DNA of 64,000 nt from positions 5,812,501 through 5,876,500 of the forward strand of contig NZ_CP012184.1 in assembly GCF_001420995.1 (NCBI RefSeq), written 5' to 3'. Below the pieces are notes generated by a model that saw only the letters and a program-made list of their open reading frames with translations, was not told where the DNA came from and ran no database searches. Position 1 is the stretch's first letter. Every line of letters begins with the position of its first letter. A program made the translations under genes and the position numbers. Source of the stretch: Pseudonocardia sp. EC080619-01. Lineage in GTDB: Bacteria > Actinomycetota > Actinomycetes > Mycobacteriales > Pseudonocardiaceae. Positions 3,081 through 53,072 of the stretch are shown here, piece after piece.

Positions 3081-3308
3081 GTGCGGACCTTCTGCTCGCG
3101 CGGAGTGGACATGCGATCCGTGGTGGGAGACGCGTGGTCGGACGTTCGGACGTCGTCGATCAGTCTGTCCCGCCGACGCCCCGGCCGTCGAGGCGACTCC
3201 GCAGCCGACGGGGTGTGACCTGGCCCGTACCGCGGCGGGACGTGCCGGGAGGAGACGCGTCACACGTCTGCGAGGCGGGTCACGGCGGGTGTGTGACAGC
3301 CTGGGGCG

Positions 3309-8488: not shown

Positions 8489-8620
8489 CCGGTCCCCGGG
8501 ACCCTCGGCACGTGTGCGGCGGGCGGGACGCGCGTACTCTCGCCCGCCCACCAGGGCGGATGCACGACGCGGCTGCCGGTCCCGTCGTCCGCGCCCCGCA
8601 GGATCGCCGGGAGGTCCGCG

Positions 8621-10348
<1,728 letters not shown>

Positions 10349-44850: not shown

Positions 44851-44868
44851 TGTCGACATACGTTGACA
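44851..44868. promoter_or_regulatory. ArsR-regulon operator 1 (before the amidase and IS630)
   Basis: 18-bp dyad TGTCGACAT-ACGTTGACA, same spacing as the dyads at 47637 and 49511. It is 17 bp left of the IS630 TA target site. Before insertion it would have been about 53 bp from the amidase start. The half-site TGTCGAYA is shared by all three sites. Confidence 0.65.
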
Positions 44869-44887
44869 TGTTGTCGGAGCGTTCCTA

Positions 44888-46022
44888 GTGTCATGAGTCG
44901 CGAGTTCGCGACATATTTGTAAGGTGGTCTGGTGGCGCGGACCGGACGACCCAAGGCCGAGCTGATCCTGTCCGACGATGAGCGGTCAGCGTTGGAGGAA
45001 TGGATTCGCCGCGGGTCGACTCCGCAGGCGTGGGCGCTGCGGTGTGTCGGATCATCCTGGCGTGCGCTTCGGGCGCGACGAACAAGGAAGTCGCGGCGCA
45101 GACGGGGTCGGCTGCGCACACGGTGGGCCGGTGGCGTGCCCGGTTCGTTGCTCACCGGATCGCCGGGCTGGGGGACCTGCCCCGTCCGGGCGGTCCGCGC
45201 ACGGTCACCGACGCTCAGGTCGCCGAGGTGATCACCACGACGTTGGAGTCCAAACCGGCTGATGCGACGCACTGGTCGACCCGCGGGATGGCCGAGCATT
45301 CGGGGTTGTCCCAATCGACGATCTCGCGGATCTGGCGCACCTTCGGGTTGGCCCCGCACCGAGCCGAGACGTTCAAGCTGTCCACCGATCCGTACTTCAT
45401 CGAGAAACTCCACGACGTCGTCGGTCTCTACCTTGACCCGCCCGAGCGGGCGCTGGTGTTCTGCGTGGACGAGAAATCCCAGATCCAGGCCTTGAACCGG
45501 TCCCAACCAGTGCTGCCGATGATGCCCGGCATCCCGCAGCGACTGACCCACGACTACGTGCGGGCAGGAACCACGACGTTGTTCGCCGCGCTCGAGGTCA
45601 CGACCGGGAAGGTGATCGGGTCGCTGCATCGCCGCCATCGCGCGAGCGAGTTCCGCACGTTCTTGACCAGGCTCGACCGCGAGGTCCCCGCCGAGCTGGA
45701 CGTGCACCTGGTGCTGGACAACTACGCCACCCACAAGACCCCGGCTATCAAGACCTGGCTGGTGGCTCACCCGAGGTTCCACCTGCATTTCACCCCGACC
45801 GGATCGTCGTGGCTCAACCTGGTCGAGCGTTGGTTCGCCGAGCTGACCACCAAGAAGATCCGCCGCGGCGTGCACACCTCGGTCCCCGCCCTCGAAGCCG
45901 ACATCCGCGACTGGATCGCCGGCTGGAACAACAACCCCAAGCCCTTCGCGTGGACCAAGACCGCGGACGAGATTCTCGAACGACTCACCCGATATCTGAA
46001 GCGAATCCCTGACTCAGGACAC
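44888..46022 (+). mobile_element. IS630-family insertion sequence
   Basis: The 1135-bp element carries one transposase gene and is flanked by a duplicated TA (44886-44887 and 46023-46024), the hallmark of IS630/Tc1-mariner insertion. The terminal inverted repeats begin GTGTCATGAGTC at the left and GTGTCCTGAGTC (reverse complement) at the right, with 11 of the first 12 bases identical and patchy similarity further in. The empty site reconstructs to CCTAGG. It sits between operator 1 and the amidase gene and reads in the same direction as the amidase. Confidence 0.9.
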
Positions 46023-46025
46023 TAG
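44932..46025 (+). pseudogene. IS630 transposase, frameshifted
   Basis: The N-terminal part (GTG 44932, [17 protein letters not shown]...WALRC) and the rest ([19 protein letters not shown].. to 46025) are in different frames. The join lies in TGTGT at 45043-45047, where two extra bases relative to the expected RCRIIL codons shift the frame. Downstream the winged HTH and the DDE catalytic core are intact: [18 protein letters not shown] and LVERWFAEL give Asp, Asp and Glu. The stop codon TAG is made of the duplicated TA plus the flanking G. Without a frameshift event no complete transposase is made. Confidence 0.85.
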
Positions 46026-46058
46026 GTTCGTCGCACCAGCCGTCCCGGAGGAGTGCTC

Positions 46059-47597
46059 GTGACCATCCCCGTGCCTGATCATGCCCGCCTCGCCGCGTTG
46101 GCCGAGCACTTCCGGTTCGGCCTGGACGAGTCCGGGGTGGCCGAGTTCCATCCGGCGGTCGGCGCCACGCTGGCGGCGTCGGAGCGCGTGGAGGAGCTGT
46201 ATGCGCGCACCGCGCCGACGCCTCCGCAGCGTGAGACCTGGGCCCCGCCGGAGAACCCGCTCAACGCGTGGGCGGTACGTACGGCGATCACCGGGTCCGA
46301 GAGCGGACCGTTGGCCGGGCGCACGGTCGCGGTCAAGGACAACGTCGCGGTCGCGGGCGTGCCCATGCTCAACGGCTCCTCCTCGCTGGAGGGGTTCGTG
46401 CCGGCCCGCGATGCCACCGTCGTGACGCGGCTGCTCGACGCCGGAGCCACCGTGTCGGGCAAGTCGGTCTGCGAGAACCTCTGCTTCTCGGGTGGGAGCT
46501 TCACCTCGTGGCCCGAGCCGGTGCGCAACCCGTGGGATCCGGCGCGCAATGCCGGGGGGTCGTCGAGTGGCAGCGCGGCGCTGGTCGCGACGGGCGAGGT
46601 CGACCTCGCCGTCGGTGGGGACCAGGGCGGGTCGGTGCGGATCCCGGCGTCGTTCACGGGGATCGTCGGGCACAAACCGACCTTCGGGCTGGTGCCCTAC
46701 ACCGGCGCCTTCCCGATCGAGCAGACCATCGACCACCTCGGTCCGATGACCCGCACGGTGGCCGACGCGGCCCGCATGCTGGACGTCATGGCGGGCGTCG
46801 ACGGCTACGACTCGCGTCAGCCGACGGTTCTCGCCCCGGCCGGCCACCTCGCGGCGCTCGAGCAGGGTGGGGCGGGTCTGCGGATCGGAGTGGTGGCCGA
46901 GGGCTTCGGCACCCCGGTCTCGGTGCCCGGTGTCGATGGCGCCGTCCGCGCTGCGGTCGACGCCCTGTCCGCGGCCGGGCTGTCCGCCGAGGAGGTCTCG
47001 ATCCCGTGGCACCGCGACGCCATGGCGGTGTGGAACGTGATCGCCACCGAGGGTGCGGCCTATCAGATGATCGACGGCAACGGTTACGGGATGGGGGCCT
47101 TCGGCCTCTACGATCCCGAGCTGATCGCCCACTACGCACGCGGTCGCCTCGAGCGCGGTTCCGAGCTGTCGAAGACGGTCAAGCTGGTCGGGCTCTCGGG
47201 GCGCTACACCTACGAGCTCGGCGGCGGTCGCTACTACGCGATGGCCCGCAACCTGTCGTACGAGCTCCGGGCGGCCTACGACGACGCGCTGTCGACCTAC
47301 GACGTGCTCGTGATGCCGACCCTGCCGTACGTGGCGCGCGAGCTCCCGCCCTCCGACGTCCCGCTCGCGGGTTATCTCGACACCGCGTTGTCCATGATCG
47401 GCAACACCGCGCCCTTCGACGTGACCGGGCATCCGGCGTGCAGCGTGCCGGCGGGCCTGGTCGAGGGGCTGCCGGTCGGGATGATGGTGGTCGGCAAGCG
47501 GTTCGACGACGCGACCGTGCTGCGGGTGGCGAACGCCCACGAGCAGCTGGTCGGCGGGTTCCCGGCGCCGAGGAGCGAGGCCTCGGCGACCCGGTGA
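46059..47597 (+). CDS. Amidase of the amidase-signature family (aliphatic/aryl amides)
   Basis: The 512-aa enzyme of the Ser-cisSer-Lys type hydrolyses amides to carboxylic acids. The catalytic Lys is in AVKDN (residue 93), the cis-Ser in NAGGSSSGS (about 168) and the nucleophile in GGDQGGSVRIPAS (Ser 192), the positions being close to those of Rhodococcus amidases that accompany nitrile hydratase. The C-terminal part is of full length. GTG 46059 lies 5 nt after GGAGGAG and is the chosen start; GTG 46053 overlaps that site. The original promoter region has been split by the IS630 element. Confidence 0.92.
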   Translation: MTIPVPDHARLAALAEHFRFGLDESGVAEFHPAVGATLAASERVEELYARTAPTPPQRETWAPPENPLNAWAVRTAITGSESGPLAGRTVAVKDNVAVAGVPMLNGSSSLEGFVPARDATVVTRLLDAGATVSGKSVCENLCFSGGSFTSWPEPVRNPWDPARNAGGSSSGSAALVATGEVDLAVGGDQGGSVRIPASFTGIVGHKPTFGLVPYTGAFPIEQTIDHLGPMTRTVADAARMLDVMAGVDGYDSRQPTVLAPAGHLAALEQGGAGLRIGVVAEGFGTPVSVPGVDGAVRAAVDALSAAGLSAEEVSIPWHRDAMAVWNVIATEGAAYQMIDGNGYGMGAFGLYDPELIAHYARGRLERGSELSKTVKLVGLSGRYTYELGGGRYYAMARNLSYELRAAYDDALSTYDVLVMPTLPYVARELPPSDVPLAGYLDTALSMIGNTAPFDVTGHPACSVPAGLVEGLPVGMMVVGKRFDDATVLRVANAHEQLVGGFPAPRSEASATR

Positions 47598-47636: not shown

Positions 47637-47654
47637 TGTCGACAGCTGTCGACT
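47637..47654. promoter_or_regulatory. ArsR-regulon operator 2 (before arsR)
   Basis: 18-bp dyad TGTCGACAG-CTGTCGACT, containing the 16-bp perfect palindrome GTCGACAGCTGTCGAC. It ends 16 bp before the regulator's start codon, so binding there would block its own transcription. Confidence 0.75.
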
Positions 47655-47670: not shown

Positions 47671-48030
47671 GTGAGCGCCAACGAGAATGTCGCCTTCGAC
47701 GCCCTCTCGGACCGGGTGCGCCGGCAGATCCTCTCGGTGCTCGGCGAGCGGGGTGAGCTCACGGTGTCCGACATCGCCGACGCCGTCGACGGCGTCGGGC
47801 GTACGACGGTGTCGAGCCACCTGCGGATCCTGCGTACCTCGGGGATCCTGTCCGAACGTCGCGACGGCCGGCGTCGCTACTACATGCTCAATCCCGACGG
47901 TGCGGTGCGTGACGCGTTCCTGTACCTGCAGTCGTTGATGCAGGCCGGGGTCGCACTCGACAAGGCGGACGAGCAGGTCGCAGACTTCGGGTCCCGTCCC
48001 GCGTCCGACGTTCGCCGCGACGTGTCCTAG
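47671..48030 (+). CDS. ArsR-family regulator of the nitrile island
   Basis: The 119-aa regulator has a winged helix-turn-helix of ArsR type (about residues 8-85; LSDRVRRQILSVL, ELTVSDIADAV, TTVSSHLRILRTSGILSERRDGRRRYYMLN). It lacks the ELCVCDL metal-binding cysteines, so it is not a metal sensor; binding of a co-inducer or a partner protein is more likely. It is followed after 16 bp by an SRPBCC-AmiC-like fusion gene. Palindromes before it, before the amidase and before nitrile hydratase suggest a three-promoter regulon. GTG 47671 is the start. Confidence 0.9.
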   Translation: MSANENVAFDALSDRVRRQILSVLGERGELTVSDIADAVDGVGRTTVSSHLRILRTSGILSERRDGRRRYYMLNPDGAVRDAFLYLQSLMQAGVALDKADEQVADFGSRPASDVRRDVS

Positions 48031-48046
48031 ATGGCAGGTGCCTCGT

Positions 48047-49519
48047 GTGAGTACTGCGACGCTCACCGCGGAGTCGGTCGTCGATCTGCCGCCACACGAG
48101 GCCTTCTCCCTGTTCGGTAGTGCCGAGGGCTCGAACTGGTTGTTCGACGCCCGTTGTGACTCGGTGGCCGTGGGTGCGCCGGTCCGGATGACCCTGCCGA
48201 TCGACGCCGACCCGGACCGGCGCCGGGTGGAGCTGCTGGGCACGATGTCCGCGGTGCGTCCCGGCCGGGCGATCGTGATCGACCACGTCCAGCCGTGGCC
48301 GGGACGGATCCGGCTGAGTTTCGTGCCGCAGGCGCCGGGCGTGACCAGGGTCCGGGTCCGGGCCGAGGTGTCCGAGTCCGGCGTGGGATGGCTGGTGCGG
48401 CACCGCGGGATCATCCTGCCCTTTCCCGATGCGGGCGAGCAGACGCTCCGGGTGGGTCTCGTCACGAGCAAGTCGGGGCCGGCGGCGGTCTACTCGATGG
48501 CGACCGAGTACCTGGCCCGGCTGGCGGTCGAGGAGGTCAACGAGGGCGGGGGAGTACGCGGGCGGATGCTCGATCTCGTCGTCGCCGACGACGAGACCGA
48601 CCCCGAGATCGCGGCGATCGAGGCGGGCAGGCTCCGCCGCGCGGGGTGTCATGCCGTCTTCGCGAGCACGACGAGCCAGAGTTTCGCGGCGATCGACGCC
48701 GCGGTCGGCCGCGACGTCCTGGTCGTCCACTCGGTCATGAACGAGCGGGGCAACAGCCGGCGCGGAGCGGCGGTGCAGCTGGGGGAGCGCCCTGACGCCC
48801 AGATCGCGGTGATCGCGGACCGGCTGATGACCACGACCGGGGCTCGCGACTGGTTTCTGGTCGGAGAGCGCTACAGCTGGTCCTACGGTGCGCACCGGGC
48901 GGCCCGCATCGCGGTGCCGCGGGTGAACGGCCGCCTCGTCGGCCAGTCCTACACCTCGGTGGGGACCACCGACTTCTCGCCGGTGATCGAGCAGATCCAG
49001 CGCTCGGGCGCCGACGTCGTGATGTCGTCACTGATCGGCGCCGACGAGGTCGAGTTCGAACGCCAGTGCGCCCGGGCGGGCCTGCGCGACACCACGCGCA
49101 CGCTGTCGCTGGTGATGGACGAGCCGACCCGTGAGCACATCGGCGCCTCGGCGGCCGAGGGCATCTGGACGGCGATGGCCTACTTCCAGGACGTCGCGGC
49201 CGAGGGCAACGACCGGCTCCTCGCGCGGTACCGGGAGCGGTTCGGGCAGTGGGCCCCGCCGGTCTCGACGATCTCGGAGACGGCCTACGAGGCGATCGTG
49301 CAGTACGCCGAGGCGGCCCGGCGCCGTGGGAACGACGGCGATCCGCTGTCCGCCCGGGCGCTGGTGGAACACCTCGAAGGCGTCGACGGCGGGGCGATCG
49401 GTACCCGCAACCTGCTCGCGCCCGCGCTCCATCTCGCGCGGGTCGGCGCGGACGGGGTGAGTGTCTTCGAGGAGGCCGGGTCGGGGACATCCACTCGTAA
49501 CACCTCTATGTGTCGATAG
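48047..49519 (+). CDS. SRPBCC-AmiC-like fusion, putative amide sensor
   Basis: The 490-aa protein is a single continuous frame with two domains. Residues 1-122 form an SRPBCC/AHSA1-like ligand pocket (start TAESVVDLPPHEAFSLFGSAEG; RIRLSFVPQAPGVTRVRVRAEV). Residues about 134-480 are a type-1 periplasmic-binding fold of the AmiC/urea-binding group (LRVGLVTSKSGPAAVYSMATEY at the start, TSTTSQSF-like ligand loop, ADVVMSSLIGADEVEF). No signal peptide or membrane helix is seen, so unlike transporter binding proteins it stays in the cytoplasm, like AmiC. It follows arsR in the same operon and probably senses amides or nitriles. GTG 48047 is used; GTG 48038 is possible. Confidence 0.85.
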   Translation: MSTATLTAESVVDLPPHEAFSLFGSAEGSNWLFDARCDSVAVGAPVRMTLPIDADPDRRRVELLGTMSAVRPGRAIVIDHVQPWPGRIRLSFVPQAPGVTRVRVRAEVSESGVGWLVRHRGIILPFPDAGEQTLRVGLVTSKSGPAAVYSMATEYLARLAVEEVNEGGGVRGRMLDLVVADDETDPEIAAIEAGRLRRAGCHAVFASTTSQSFAAIDAAVGRDVLVVHSVMNERGNSRRGAAVQLGERPDAQIAVIADRLMTTTGARDWFLVGERYSWSYGAHRAARIAVPRVNGRLVGQSYTSVGTTDFSPVIEQIQRSGADVVMSSLIGADEVEFERQCARAGLRDTTRTLSLVMDEPTREHIGASAAEGIWTAMAYFQDVAAEGNDRLLARYRERFGQWAPPVSTISETAYEAIVQYAEAARRRGNDGDPLSARALVEHLEGVDGGAIGTRNLLAPALHLARVGADGVSVFEEAGSGTSTRNTSMCR

Positions 49520-49528
49520 ATATCGACA
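49511..49528. promoter_or_regulatory. ArsR-regulon operator 3 (before nitrile hydratase)
   Basis: 18-bp dyad TGTCGATAG-ATATCGACA overlapping the last codons of the sensor gene, 59 bp before the nitrile hydratase beta start. Symmetry and spacing are the same as in operators 1 and 2. Confidence 0.7.
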
Positions 49529-49587: not shown

Positions 49588-50271
49588 ATGGACGGCGTGC
49601 ACGATCTGGGTGGCCGGCAGGGTTTCGGGCCGATCGATCCGGAGGCCGACGAGCCGGTGTTCCACTCCGACTGGGAGCGCCGGGTGCTGGTGATGTTCCC
49701 GGCGATGGCCGGAGCGGGCGCGTTCAATCTCGACCAGTTCCGGTACGGGATGGAGCAGATCCCGCCGGCGGAGTATCTCGCCTCGACCTACTACGAGCAC
49801 TGGATGCACTCGATGATCCACTGGGGCATCGAGGCGGGGATCTTCGATCCCGAGGATCTCGAACGTCGCACCCGCCACTACCTGGAACACCCCGAGGAGG
49901 CCGCGCCGAAGGCGGCGAAGGCCGACCTGACCGAGGCGCTGCGGCAGCTGATCCCCACCGGCGCCGACTACCGTCGCGAGACCGATTCCGGGCCCGCGTT
50001 CGGCGTGGGCGACCGGGTCCGCGTGCTGGACCACGTCTCGACCATGCACACCCGCCGTGCCGGCTACGTGCGTGGACGGACCGGAGAGATCGTCGCTACC
50101 CACGGCGCCTACGTCTATCCCGACAGCAACGCCGCGGGACTGGGCGAGGACCCCCACCACCTCTACACGGTGCGATTCCGCTCCGAGGAGCTGTGGGGCG
50201 CGGGCGAACCGGGCGCGGCGAACGCGGTCAACCACATCGATCTGTGGGAGCCCTACCTCACCGCGGTCTGA
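49588..50271 (+). CDS. Nitrile hydratase beta subunit
   Basis: The 227-aa beta subunit opens with the family signature MDGVHDLGGRQGFGP, followed by an HSDWERRVLVM segment, a helical centre (YYEHWMHSMIHWGIEAG) and a C-terminal SH3-like barrel starting at FGVGDRVRVLD. Together with alpha it makes the nitrile-to-amide hydratase active site. The gene order beta-alpha-activator is typical of cobalt enzymes of Pseudonocardia and of Rhodococcus high-molecular-mass enzymes. A GAAGG site precedes the ATG. Confidence 0.95.
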   Translation: MDGVHDLGGRQGFGPIDPEADEPVFHSDWERRVLVMFPAMAGAGAFNLDQFRYGMEQIPPAEYLASTYYEHWMHSMIHWGIEAGIFDPEDLERRTRHYLEHPEEAAPKAAKADLTEALRQLIPTGADYRRETDSGPAFGVGDRVRVLDHVSTMHTRRAGYVRGRTGEIVATHGAYVYPDSNAAGLGEDPHHLYTVRFRSEELWGAGEPGAANAVNHIDLWEPYLTAV

Positions 50272-50321: not shown

Positions 50322-50939
50322 ATGTCACTGCACCACGACCACTCGACGATCACCGAGGACGACCGGATCGCCGCTCGCGTCAAGGCCATGGAGGCGATCC
50401 TGGTCGAGAAGGGAATCATCGGCTCGGACGCGATCGACTACATGTCCTCGGTCTACGAGAACGAGGTCGGCCCGCAGCTCGGGGCGAGGATCGTCGCGCG
50501 GGCGTGGGTCGACGCGGAGTTCAGGTCCCGCCTGCTCTCCGACGCCACCGAGGCGTGCAAGGAGTTGGGTGTCTCGGGCATGCAGGGCGAGGAGATGGTG
50601 GTCCTGGAGAACACGGGCACCGTCCACCACCTCGTGGTCTGCACGCTGTGTTCGTGCTACCCGTGGCCGGTGCTGGGACTCCCCCCGAACTGGTACAAGT
50701 ACCCGGCCTACCGGGCCCGAGCGGTCCGTGATCCGCGCGGCGTGATGGCCGAGTTCGGCCTGGACCTGTCCGAGAGCGTCGAGGTGCAGGTGTGGGACTC
50801 CAGCGCCGAGCTGCGCTACTGGGTGCTGCCCCGGCGCCCCGCCGGCACCGACGGGTGGTCCGAGGACCGGCTCGCCGAGCTGGTCACCCGCGACTCGTTG
50901 ATCGGGGTCGCGGACGTCACCGGCCCGGCCGCGGCGTGA
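50322..50939 (+). CDS. Cobalt-type nitrile hydratase alpha subunit
   Basis: The 205-aa alpha subunit holds the metal site C-T-L-C-S-C at residues 107-112 followed by YPWPVLGLPPNWYKYPAY. Thr in the second place is the cobalt-type signature (iron enzymes have Ser). The three Cys bind Co(III), and two are post-translationally oxidised to sulfinate and sulfenate. The enzyme hydrates nitriles to amides in the cytoplasm. An AGAGGA site lies before the ATG. The next gene overlaps its stop codon by 4 bp. Confidence 0.96.
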   Translation: MSLHHDHSTITEDDRIAARVKAMEAILVEKGIIGSDAIDYMSSVYENEVGPQLGARIVARAWVDAEFRSRLLSDATEACKELGVSGMQGEEMVVLENTGTVHHLVVCTLCSCYPWPVLGLPPNWYKYPAYRARAVRDPRGVMAEFGLDLSESVEVQVWDSSAELRYWVLPRRPAGTDGWSEDRLAELVTRDSLIGVADVTGPAAA

Positions 50940-51370
50940 TCGGGATGGAGCGACTGAACCGGACGCCGTCACCGGAGACCAAGCCGCGGGTCGACTCGCT
51001 GGTCGAGGCCCTGCCCTTCAACGAGGCGATCCCGCGCCGCTCGGGTGATGTCGCGTTCGACCACGCCTGGGAGATCCGGGCCTTCAGCATGACCGTGGCC
51101 CTGCACGAGGAGCTCGGCTTCCCGTGGGCGGAGTTCCAGGACAGGCTCGTCGCCGCCATCCAGGAGTTCGAGTCGGGGCGCCCCGACCTGGAGCACTGGA
51201 GCTACTACGAGCGGTGGATGGCCGCACTCGAGGTCCTCGCGCGCAGCAAGGGCTGGGTCTCGCAGACGGAGCTCGAGCAGCGGACCGAGGAGATCCTCGC
51301 GCTCCCGGCGAACTACATGCACCAGCATGCCGTCCGCGAACCGGTCGCCGTGATCACCGGGGCACGGTGA
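50936..51370 (+). CDS. Nitrile hydratase activator/accessory protein
   Basis: The 144-aa protein resembles the N-terminal half of the nitrile hydratase beta subunit (FDHAWEIRAFSMTVALHEELGFPWAEFQDRL; YYERWMAALEVLARSKGWV), as do the known activators (P14K, P16, NhlE). Such proteins carry the alpha subunit for cobalt loading and cysteine oxidation and then swap it onto beta. GTG 50936 overlaps the alpha stop codon (GTGA), implying coupling; ATG 50945 is the alternative. It is shorter than a beta subunit and has no SH3-like barrel. Confidence 0.88.
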   Translation: MIGMERLNRTPSPETKPRVDSLVEALPFNEAIPRRSGDVAFDHAWEIRAFSMTVALHEELGFPWAEFQDRLVAAIQEFESGRPDLEHWSYYERWMAALEVLARSKGWVSQTELEQRTEEILALPANYMHQHAVREPVAVITGAR

Positions 51371-51618
51371 TGGCCGACGACCTCTCCGAGGACATCGACG
51401 AGGGCGCCGTGAACGCTCATCACGTCGCCGCGATCGCAGCGCTGGCCGGGCTCCCGCTGGAGCCCTCCCGCCTCGCGCCGGTGGCCGCGCTGCTCTCGGC
51501 CTGGATCCCCGGTGCGAACGCGCTGAGTGCCCGGATGCAGTCCGCCGAACTCGACGGGCTGATGCCCGCCGTGGTGTTCACCCGTCCCGGGATCCACGAC
51601 GAGGAGGGCGGGCAGTGA
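51370..51618 (+). CDS. AtzG/GatC-like small partner of the second amidase
   Basis: The 82-aa protein is largely helical with HHVAAIAALAGLPLEPSRLAPVAALLSAW and a C-terminal PAVVFTRPG. This resembles AtzG-like (DUF4089) or GatC-type stabilising subunits of amidase-signature enzymes such as AtzE. It lies between the activator and an amidase gene, overlapping each by 1 and 4 bp, so it is made together with the amidase. The similarity is moderate; it could be another small helical partner. Confidence 0.65.
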   Translation: MADDLSEDIDEGAVNAHHVAAIAALAGLPLEPSRLAPVAALLSAWIPGANALSARMQSAELDGLMPAVVFTRPGIHDEEGGQ

Positions 51619-53072
51619 ACGACGGAGCGGCGGACGACCGGGCGCCGGGTGACGATCTCCTCGACCGCACGCTGACCGAGGTCGCCCACCTGGTCGCTGC
51701 CGGCGAGGTGTCCCCGGTCGAGCTCGTCGAGCGGTCGCTGCGGCGGATCGAGCAGATCGCCGGGACCAACGCGTTCATCTCCGTCGACTCCGACGACGCC
51801 CTGGCCGTGGCCCGGGCGAGCGAGACGATGATCTCCGCCGGTCACCGGATCGGACCGCTGCACGGCGTCCCGGTCGCGCTCAAGGACAACGTCTCCGTCC
51901 GCGACAAGCCCACGACCGCGGGCAGCGCCATCCTGGCCGACCACCGCCCGGCCGAGGACGCGACGGTCACCCGCCGACTGCGGTCGGCGGGAGCGATCAT
52001 CGTCGGCAAGACCAACATGCACGAGTTCGCGTGGGGCGGGACCTCGGCGAACCCGCACTACGGGTTCGTCACCAACCCGTGGGACACCGGCCGGATGCCG
52101 GGTGGATCCAGCGGCGGCTCCGGCGTCGCGGTCGCGACCCGAGCCTGCTTCGGTGCGCTCGGTACCGACACCGGCGGATCGATCCGGCTGCCCGCGGCGC
52201 TCAACGGCATCACCGGGCTGCGTCCGACGATCGGGCGGGTCAGCAACGCAGGCGTGATCCCACTGGCCTGGAGCATGGACACCGTCGGTCCGATGGCCCG
52301 CACCGCGGCGGACTGTGCGGTCATGTTCACCGCGCTGGCCGGTCACGACCCGGCCGATGCCGGTTCGGCCGACCGGGCGGGGGAGGACTACTCCCGCGAT
52401 CTCGGTGCCGGGCTCGACGGGCTCCGGGTCGGGATCATCGAGGGCTACTCCCTGCACCACGTCCAGCCCGCGGTCGACAAGGCGCTGCGCGCGGCACTGG
52501 ACGTCCTCGTCGCCGGCGGCGCCCGCACGAGCGAGGTCTCGATCGCCGACATCGAGGGCAACATCTCCGCCCAGCTCACCGTCGAGGCGTGCGAACCCAG
52601 CACCTACCACCAGCGCTGGTTGCGCGAGCGCCCCGACGACTACGGCGACGACGTCCGGCTCCTGCTCGAGGCGGGGGAGATGCTGCCGGCCACCCAGTAC
52701 CTGCAGGCCCAGCGCTACCGGACGCTGCTGCGCTCGCAGACCCTCGCCGCGCTGTCGCGGGTGGACCTGCTGGTGTGTCCGACCCTGCCCTTCACCGCGA
52801 CCCCGCTCGGGGAGGTGACCGTCGAGATCGATCCGGGACGACCGGAGGACATGCTCTCGGCGATCATGCAGTTCACCGGGTTGCCGTCGCTGACCGGTCT
52901 GCCGGCGATCAGCGTGCCCTGCGGCTTCGACGATGCGGGACTGCCCATCGGTATGCAGCTGATCGGCCGTCCGTTCGCGGAGTCGACACTGCTGCGGGCC
53001 GCGGCCGGGTTCCAGGCGGGCACCGGGTTCCACACTGCGGCCCCCCGGGTCGGGCGGGACCGAGCCCGGTAG
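51615..53072 (+). CDS. Second amidase, AtzE/GatA-like
   Basis: The 485-aa amidase-signature hydrolase has the catalytic Lys in VALKDN (residue 90), the cis-Ser in MPGGSSGGSG (about 166) and the nucleophile in GTDTGGSIRLPAA (Ser 189). It belongs to a different branch from the amidase at 46059, closer to GatA/AtzE proteins, which work with a small GatC/AtzG-like subunit; such a gene directly precedes it with a GTGA overlap. It should hydrolyse the amide made by nitrile hydratase or a more complex amide. Confidence 0.9.
   Translation: MNDGAADDRAPGDDLLDRTLTEVAHLVAAGEVSPVELVERSLRRIEQIAGTNAFISVDSDDALAVARASETMISAGHRIGPLHGVPVALKDNVSVRDKPTTAGSAILADHRPAEDATVTRRLRSAGAIIVGKTNMHEFAWGGTSANPHYGFVTNPWDTGRMPGGSSGGSGVAVATRACFGALGTDTGGSIRLPAALNGITGLRPTIGRVSNAGVIPLAWSMDTVGPMARTAADCAVMFTALAGHDPADAGSADRAGEDYSRDLGAGLDGLRVGIIEGYSLHHVQPAVDKALRAALDVLVAGGARTSEVSIADIEGNISAQLTVEACEPSTYHQRWLRERPDDYGDDVRLLLEAGEMLPATQYLQAQRYRTLLRSQTLAALSRVDLLVCPTLPFTATPLGEVTVEIDPGRPEDMLSAIMQFTGLPSLTGLPAISVPCGFDDAGLPIGMQLIGRPFAESTLLRAAAGFQAGTGFHTAAPRVGRDRAR

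Follow-up and report, generated by a model that had tools for sequence, protein, structure and literature searches.

What could an AmiC-like protein joined to an SRPBCC (START-like) domain be doing directly behind an ArsR repressor gene and in front of nitrile hydratase genes? Nitrile hydratases (NHases) of this group serve as catalysts in industry, and we know of no worked-out mechanism for their amide induction by an ArsR/AmiC-like pair. The arrangement occurs in Pseudonocardia sp. EC080619-01, within a stretch of 64,000 nucleotides of contig NZ_CP012184.1 that was analysed as a whole and is called the window below. The best explanation of the whole, with a probability of roughly 0.62, is a cytoplasmic amide-responsive switch of the NhlD/NhlC kind, in which the fusion would be an anti-repressor. 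The + strand of the window carries the following, in this order.

44884..46026, + strand: IS630-family element (transposase 45000-46025; NCBIfam transpos_IS630, 261.8 bits vs 100)
46053..47597, + strand: amidase, 514 aa (Pfam Amidase, E 3.1e-89; NCBIfam PRK07235, above cut-off)
47671..48030, + strand: ArsR-family repressor, 119 aa, Cys-free, probable NhlD counterpart (Pfam/NCBIfam ArsR-type winged helix)
48047..49519, + strand: SRPBCC-AmiC fusion, 490 aa, one open frame, probable NhlC counterpart
48047..48406, + strand: predicted SRPBCC (START-like) domain, residues 1-120 of the fusion (predicted model and fold search)
48443..49387, + strand: AmiC/UrtA-type binding domain (Peripla_BP_6), residues 133-447 of the fusion (Pfam E 1.4e-61)
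49588..50271, + strand: NHase beta subunit (TIGR03888, 253 bits vs cut-off 152.2)
50322..50939, + strand: NHase alpha subunit, contains CTLCSC (TIGR01323, 298 bits vs cut-off 249.85)
50939..51370, + strand: NHase accessory protein (TIGR03889, 66.1 bits vs cut-off 46)
51615..53072, + strand: second amidase, AtzE-like (Pfam Amidase, E 1.1e-120)

From its CTLCSC motif the alpha subunit is presumably of the Co type. The best NCBIfam match of the second amidase is the AtzE-family model PRK09201, under its cut-off. A small open frame at 51387-51617, lying after the NHase accessory gene and ahead of the AtzE-like amidase gene, is perhaps a GatC/AtzG-like small subunit; a Pfam scan of it gave no match.

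The two-domain architecture had been proposed in a preliminary description of the locus, together with an ArsR gene directly before it, and both are borne out: the ArsR protein contains zero Cys, and its stop codon lies 16 bases from the start of the single open frame of the fusion. By sequence comparison, residues 133-447 have the type I periplasmic-binding fold of the AmiC/UrtA group. This half is related to AmiC (1pea, E 1.1e-11) and closer to urea-binding-type proteins; the UrtA model was matched by all 38 members of the fusion alignment, the window fusion scoring 123.6 bits, below the cut-off of 492.75. Residues 1-120 of the window protein gave no Pfam match, and their assignment is weak from sequence alone. 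An AlphaFold2 model of these residues (pLDDT 87.8) retrieved PR-10, Aha1, START and polyketide-cyclase structures among the informatively titled matches of a fold search, with the MSMEG_6760 structure (3uid) among the best, and on this model the N-terminal domain is a member of the SRPBCC superfamily with a helix-grip fold. In the full-length model (pLDDT 90.2, pTM 0.91) both domains are placed with high confidence.

The fusion was then followed through 97 loci, comprising 35 from family- and class-level genomes, 7 plasmid records and 55 of 77 loci from a genome scan; the other 22, which matched only from query residue 123 onward, were left out. It is intact in 92 of the 97, corresponding to 79 distinct proteins besides that of the window. 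An assembly error, which the preliminary description had kept in mind, and a chance junction are ruled out by these 79 further copies. The five broken loci comprise two frameshifted copies (L081, L082), one split copy (L112) and two without the AmiC part (L142, L145). In 78 of the 79 distinct intact fusions the gene immediately before, on the same strand, encodes ArsR, the exception (L101) having its ArsR gene elsewhere in the cluster, and the intervening gap is at most 50 bases in 80 of 91 cases, copies included. The nitrile and amide setting that had been expected of the pair was also recovered: NHase genes occur near 45 of the 79, amidase genes only near 31 and neither near 3, which makes 76 with one or the other. 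Two close relatives of the window fusion (L118, L121) showed no NHase or amidase match in the stretch examined. In Acidimicrobiia (L131-L138) a separate AmiC-like relative without SRPBCC domain comes after the ArsR-fusion pair and, further on, an AtzE-like amidase.

Since the genome scan by fusion alignment used two peptide patterns and kept the best 80 matches, the range that it gives is a lower bound. Its intact copies are all from Actinomycetota, including at least Pseudonocardia, Actinomycetospora, Amycolatopsis, Streptomyces, Nonomuraea, Nocardioides, Acidimicrobiia and others; a Williamsia record among them is flagged as contaminated. Plasmid copies were found in Rhodococcus and Paenarthrobacter. 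Only 2 of 394 genomes in a class-wide sample matched at E 1e-50, the host genome included; beyond its main groups the fusion is therefore rare. A profile of the N-terminal domain matched 35 of 200 family genomes, 34 of which are fusion carriers (two of them, G025 and G158, with broken copies). The remaining genome (G062) has one weak match only and one carrier (G034) an extra weak match, and no match to the window ArsR was found within the 7.5 kb around these two. Viral contigs hold two distant, unfused relatives. In a midpoint-rooted tree of the AmiC-like part, built from 34 fused and 16 hand-chosen unfused rows, the fused rows lie on one side of a branch with support 94/90, which is consistent with a single fusion event.

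Much about the pair may already be known under other names. In Rhodococcus rhodochrous J1, nhlD is said to encode an ArsR-like negative regulator and nhlC an AmiC-like positive one, as reportedly found by Komeda et al. in 1996. The window resembles the NhlD/NhlC cluster in its ArsR gene, AmiC-like gene, NHase beta, alpha and accessory genes and nearby amidase; unlike that cluster, it has no Ni/Co transporter gene immediately after its NHase genes, and it has an amidase before arsR as well as the IS630 insertion. A plasmid of R. rhodochrous ATCC BAA-870 carries ArsR, fusion, NHase beta, alpha, accessory, Ni/Co transporter and amidase genes in this order, which recurs in R. rhodochrous BX2 and R. 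pyridinivorans P23 and, interrupted by a transposase gene ahead of the amidase, in R. aetherivorans N1. With reference to Komeda 1996, the NHase of BAA-870 has been called identical to J1's low-molecular-mass enzyme (PMC6983157), and the beta-alpha spacer of BX2 is 63 bp, equal to the figure given for J1 (PMC5482477). Because the pair is present in BAA-870 beside an NHase reportedly identical to that of J1, the ArsR-fusion pair is probably NhlD/NhlC. The window fusion belongs to the same clade of fused proteins as the copy of BX2, a relative of BAA-870. If the link is right, genetic knowledge of the pair dates back to 1996; a review names R. rhodochrous J1 as the strain in which NHase induction by amide/urea was elucidated first (PMC11573777). 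The BAA-870 NHase is reported to be expressed constitutively (PMC6941271), though the ArsR-fusion pair is present. The earlier statement that no example had been described is thus probably wrong for the pair. As for the SRPBCC domain, a literature search that reached few subscription papers gave, among the matches listed, no description of this domain in the pair or of the fusion. An SRPBCC domain in a probably known but poorly understood switch apparently went unrecognised.

AmiC of the Pseudomonas aeruginosa amidase operon is a cytoplasmic amide-binding protein that controls a regulator, and the AmiC-like half of the fusion is its homologue. AmiC has no SRPBCC domain, however, and its partner AmiR is an ANTAR antiterminator, whereas the partner in the window is an ArsR protein; no ANTAR match was found in the nine neighbouring proteins scanned. 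On the Rhodococcus plasmid pN2 (L038) an AmiC-like gene likewise stands beside a DNA-binding regulator gene and NHase genes, but its product is unfused (361 aa), falls on the unfused side of the tree and has a MarR-family neighbour; an ArsR gene is present downstream of the NHase genes. The AmiC-like and MarR-family genes of pN2 are presumably nhhC and nhhD.

Three operator-like palindromes were newly found in the locus.

44851..44868, no strand: operator-like palindrome TGTCGACATACGTTGACA, matching TGTCRN8YGACW on both strands
47637..47654, no strand: candidate ArsR operator TGTCGACAGCTGTCGACT, beginning 34 bases before arsR
49511..49528, no strand: candidate ArsR operator TGTCGATAGATATCGACA, in front of the NHase genes, overlapping the end of the fusion gene

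A tighter pattern, derived from TGTCGACAGCTGTCGACT and TGTCGATAGATATCGACA after both sites had been seen, has no further exact match in the 7.2-Mb genome, and its reversed control has none; with one mismatch allowed it matches two further places (C1:78828 and C2:215028). The looser pattern TGTCRN8YGACW was prompted by the sites of relatives. It occurs five times in the window (8 strand hits vs 1.35 expected), namely at the three listed, 44896 inside the IS630 end, and 15736. This pattern or its mirror form is found 32 to 50 bases before the start of arsR in 10 of 78 relatives, as against a mean of 0.275 and a maximum of 3 in pieces drawn at random from these loci; the other 68 upstreams have no such site. 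Of two other palindrome scans, one was positive in 17 of 92 upstreams, a set that counts copies and the window (shuffled mean 0.525), and one in 14 of 79 arsR upstreams of the distinct set, window included. The plain identity of the two window promoters is unremarkable, at 14/18, which was equalled by 12 of 300 shuffles. In BAA-870 TGTCRN8YGACW sites lie at 8613-8630, before arsR, and at 3128-3145; the NHase upstream has no site of this pattern, showing a near miss by eye.

The third palindrome appears to have been severed from the amidase gene by the IS630 element, whose terminal inverted repeats are 33 nt long and 76% complementary. TGTCGACATACGTTGACA lies 15 bases to the left of the element and the amidase start 26 bases to its right, and the palindrome is probably a former amidase promoter site. 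On the simplest reading the amidase gene originally carried an operator like the other two and was later separated from it, and with IS630 standing between the two the amidase may have lost its original control.

These elements suggest a mechanism. ArsR would repress its own operon and the NHase operon from the 18-bp palindromes (TGTCR-N8-YGACW), and the first amidase gene was probably under ArsR too before IS630 came in. The AmiC/UrtA-like half would bind an amide made by the NHase, and the amide-loaded fusion would take ArsR off the DNA. The SRPBCC half may serve as the adaptor to ArsR, having come from an ordinary ArsR-SRPBCC gene pair. That an SRPBCC gene often comes after an ArsR gene had been pointed out beforehand and is seen in this genome, where 4 of 10 AHSA1 matches, compared by eye, lie within about 260 bases 3' of a same-strand HTH_20 match. 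The adaptor role is attractive because of these pairs and because MSMEG_6760, one of the best fold matches, is co-transcribed with the ArsR gene MSMEG_6762 in Mycobacterium smegmatis (PMC9416677). That pair, unlike the window's, has no AmiC domain, and the same source treats it as a predicted toxin-antitoxin pair. In favour of the switch were counted the constancy of the ArsR pairing and of the NHase/amidase context, the palindromes at the arsR and NHase promoters with their counterparts in ten relatives, the lack of CxC motifs in the ArsR partners, the AHSA1 genes following ArsR-type genes, the J1 induction review and the reported roles of nhlD and nhlC. Against it were counted the co-divergence result given below, the 68 relatives without a site, the two one-mismatch places, the unremarkable promoter identity and, for BAA-870, the NHase upstream without a TGTCRN8YGACW site and the constitutive NHase.

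The divergence of ArsR was compared with that of each fusion half by partial correlations, which were 0.41 for the AmiC-like half and 0.10 for the SRPBCC half (their difference ranged from -0.43 to -0.18 in the bootstrap), or 0.35 and 0.22 when the halves were matched in length. Co-divergence did not single out the SRPBCC half as the partner of ArsR; the AmiC-like half tracked it more closely, and this was counted against an SRPBCC-ArsR contact. ArsR might accordingly be touched by the AmiC-like half, with the SRPBCC domain as structural support or as a second ligand pocket, for instance for bulky or aromatic nitriles and amides. SRPBCC domains often bind hydrophobic ligands, and the confident placing of both domains in the full-length model would suit this arrangement; standalone ArsR-SRPBCC pairs speak for a relation of ArsR to the SRPBCC domain instead, and on pN2 the unfused AmiC-like gene adjoins a MarR-family gene, with an ArsR gene downstream of the NHase genes. 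This alternative to the adaptor is unlikely. The opposite sense of control is likewise improbable. Pseudomonas AmiC silences AmiR, and in the same sense a ligand-free fusion could hold ArsR on the DNA until amide breaks the complex; the parts list, the gene pairing and the homology to AmiC would be the same, but the J1 genetics reportedly give nhlC a positive role and ArsR proteins as a rule repress alone.

That ArsR answers to a metal such as cobalt, with the fusion as a separate amide input, is very improbable. The NHase of the window does look Co-type. CblA, a cobalt-sensing regulator that is of the ArsR family like the window protein, controls NHase in R. rhodochrous (PMC7689651), but it senses metal, and the passage on it mentions no fusion partner. 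The window ArsR is devoid of Cys, and of the 91 partners counted with duplicates, 51 contain no Cys, 36 a single one and 4 two, with no CxC motif in the 78 partners of distinct fusions (Cys being the only residue scored). That the fusion is an exported ABC-transporter binding protein unrelated to ArsR, as the current annotation of its copies as 'substrate-binding protein' and their UrtA matches would have it, is hardly credible, given a predicted folded SRPBCC domain in the N-terminal place of the would-be signal peptide, the near-constant position after ArsR, and the separate relative without SRPBCC just downstream in L131-L138.

Returning to the amide-responsive switch, its mechanism can be tested directly through the SRPBCC domain, the strict pairing with ArsR and the candidate operators, and an amide-controlled ArsR switch, if real, would be a useful biosensor part. 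The SRPBCC finding could also explain why SRPBCC genes so often follow ArsR genes. A broader and doubtful, though possible, proposal is that SRPBCC domains generally antagonise the ArsR repressor encoded next to them, of which the fusion would be a natural demonstration. If so, an amide-controlled switch arose when an amide-binding AmiC domain was grafted onto an ArsR-SRPBCC pair, and orphan ArsR-SRPBCC pairs, at least one of which has been treated as toxin-antitoxin, would consist of a repressor and its ligand-controlled anti-repressor. In Streptomyces sp. STR69 (L142, 7998-8510) and Pseudonocardia kunmingensis (L145, 7923-8297) the ArsR gene and the SRPBCC part are kept and the AmiC part is gone, and these two loci are useful natural tests of the SRPBCC part acting alone.
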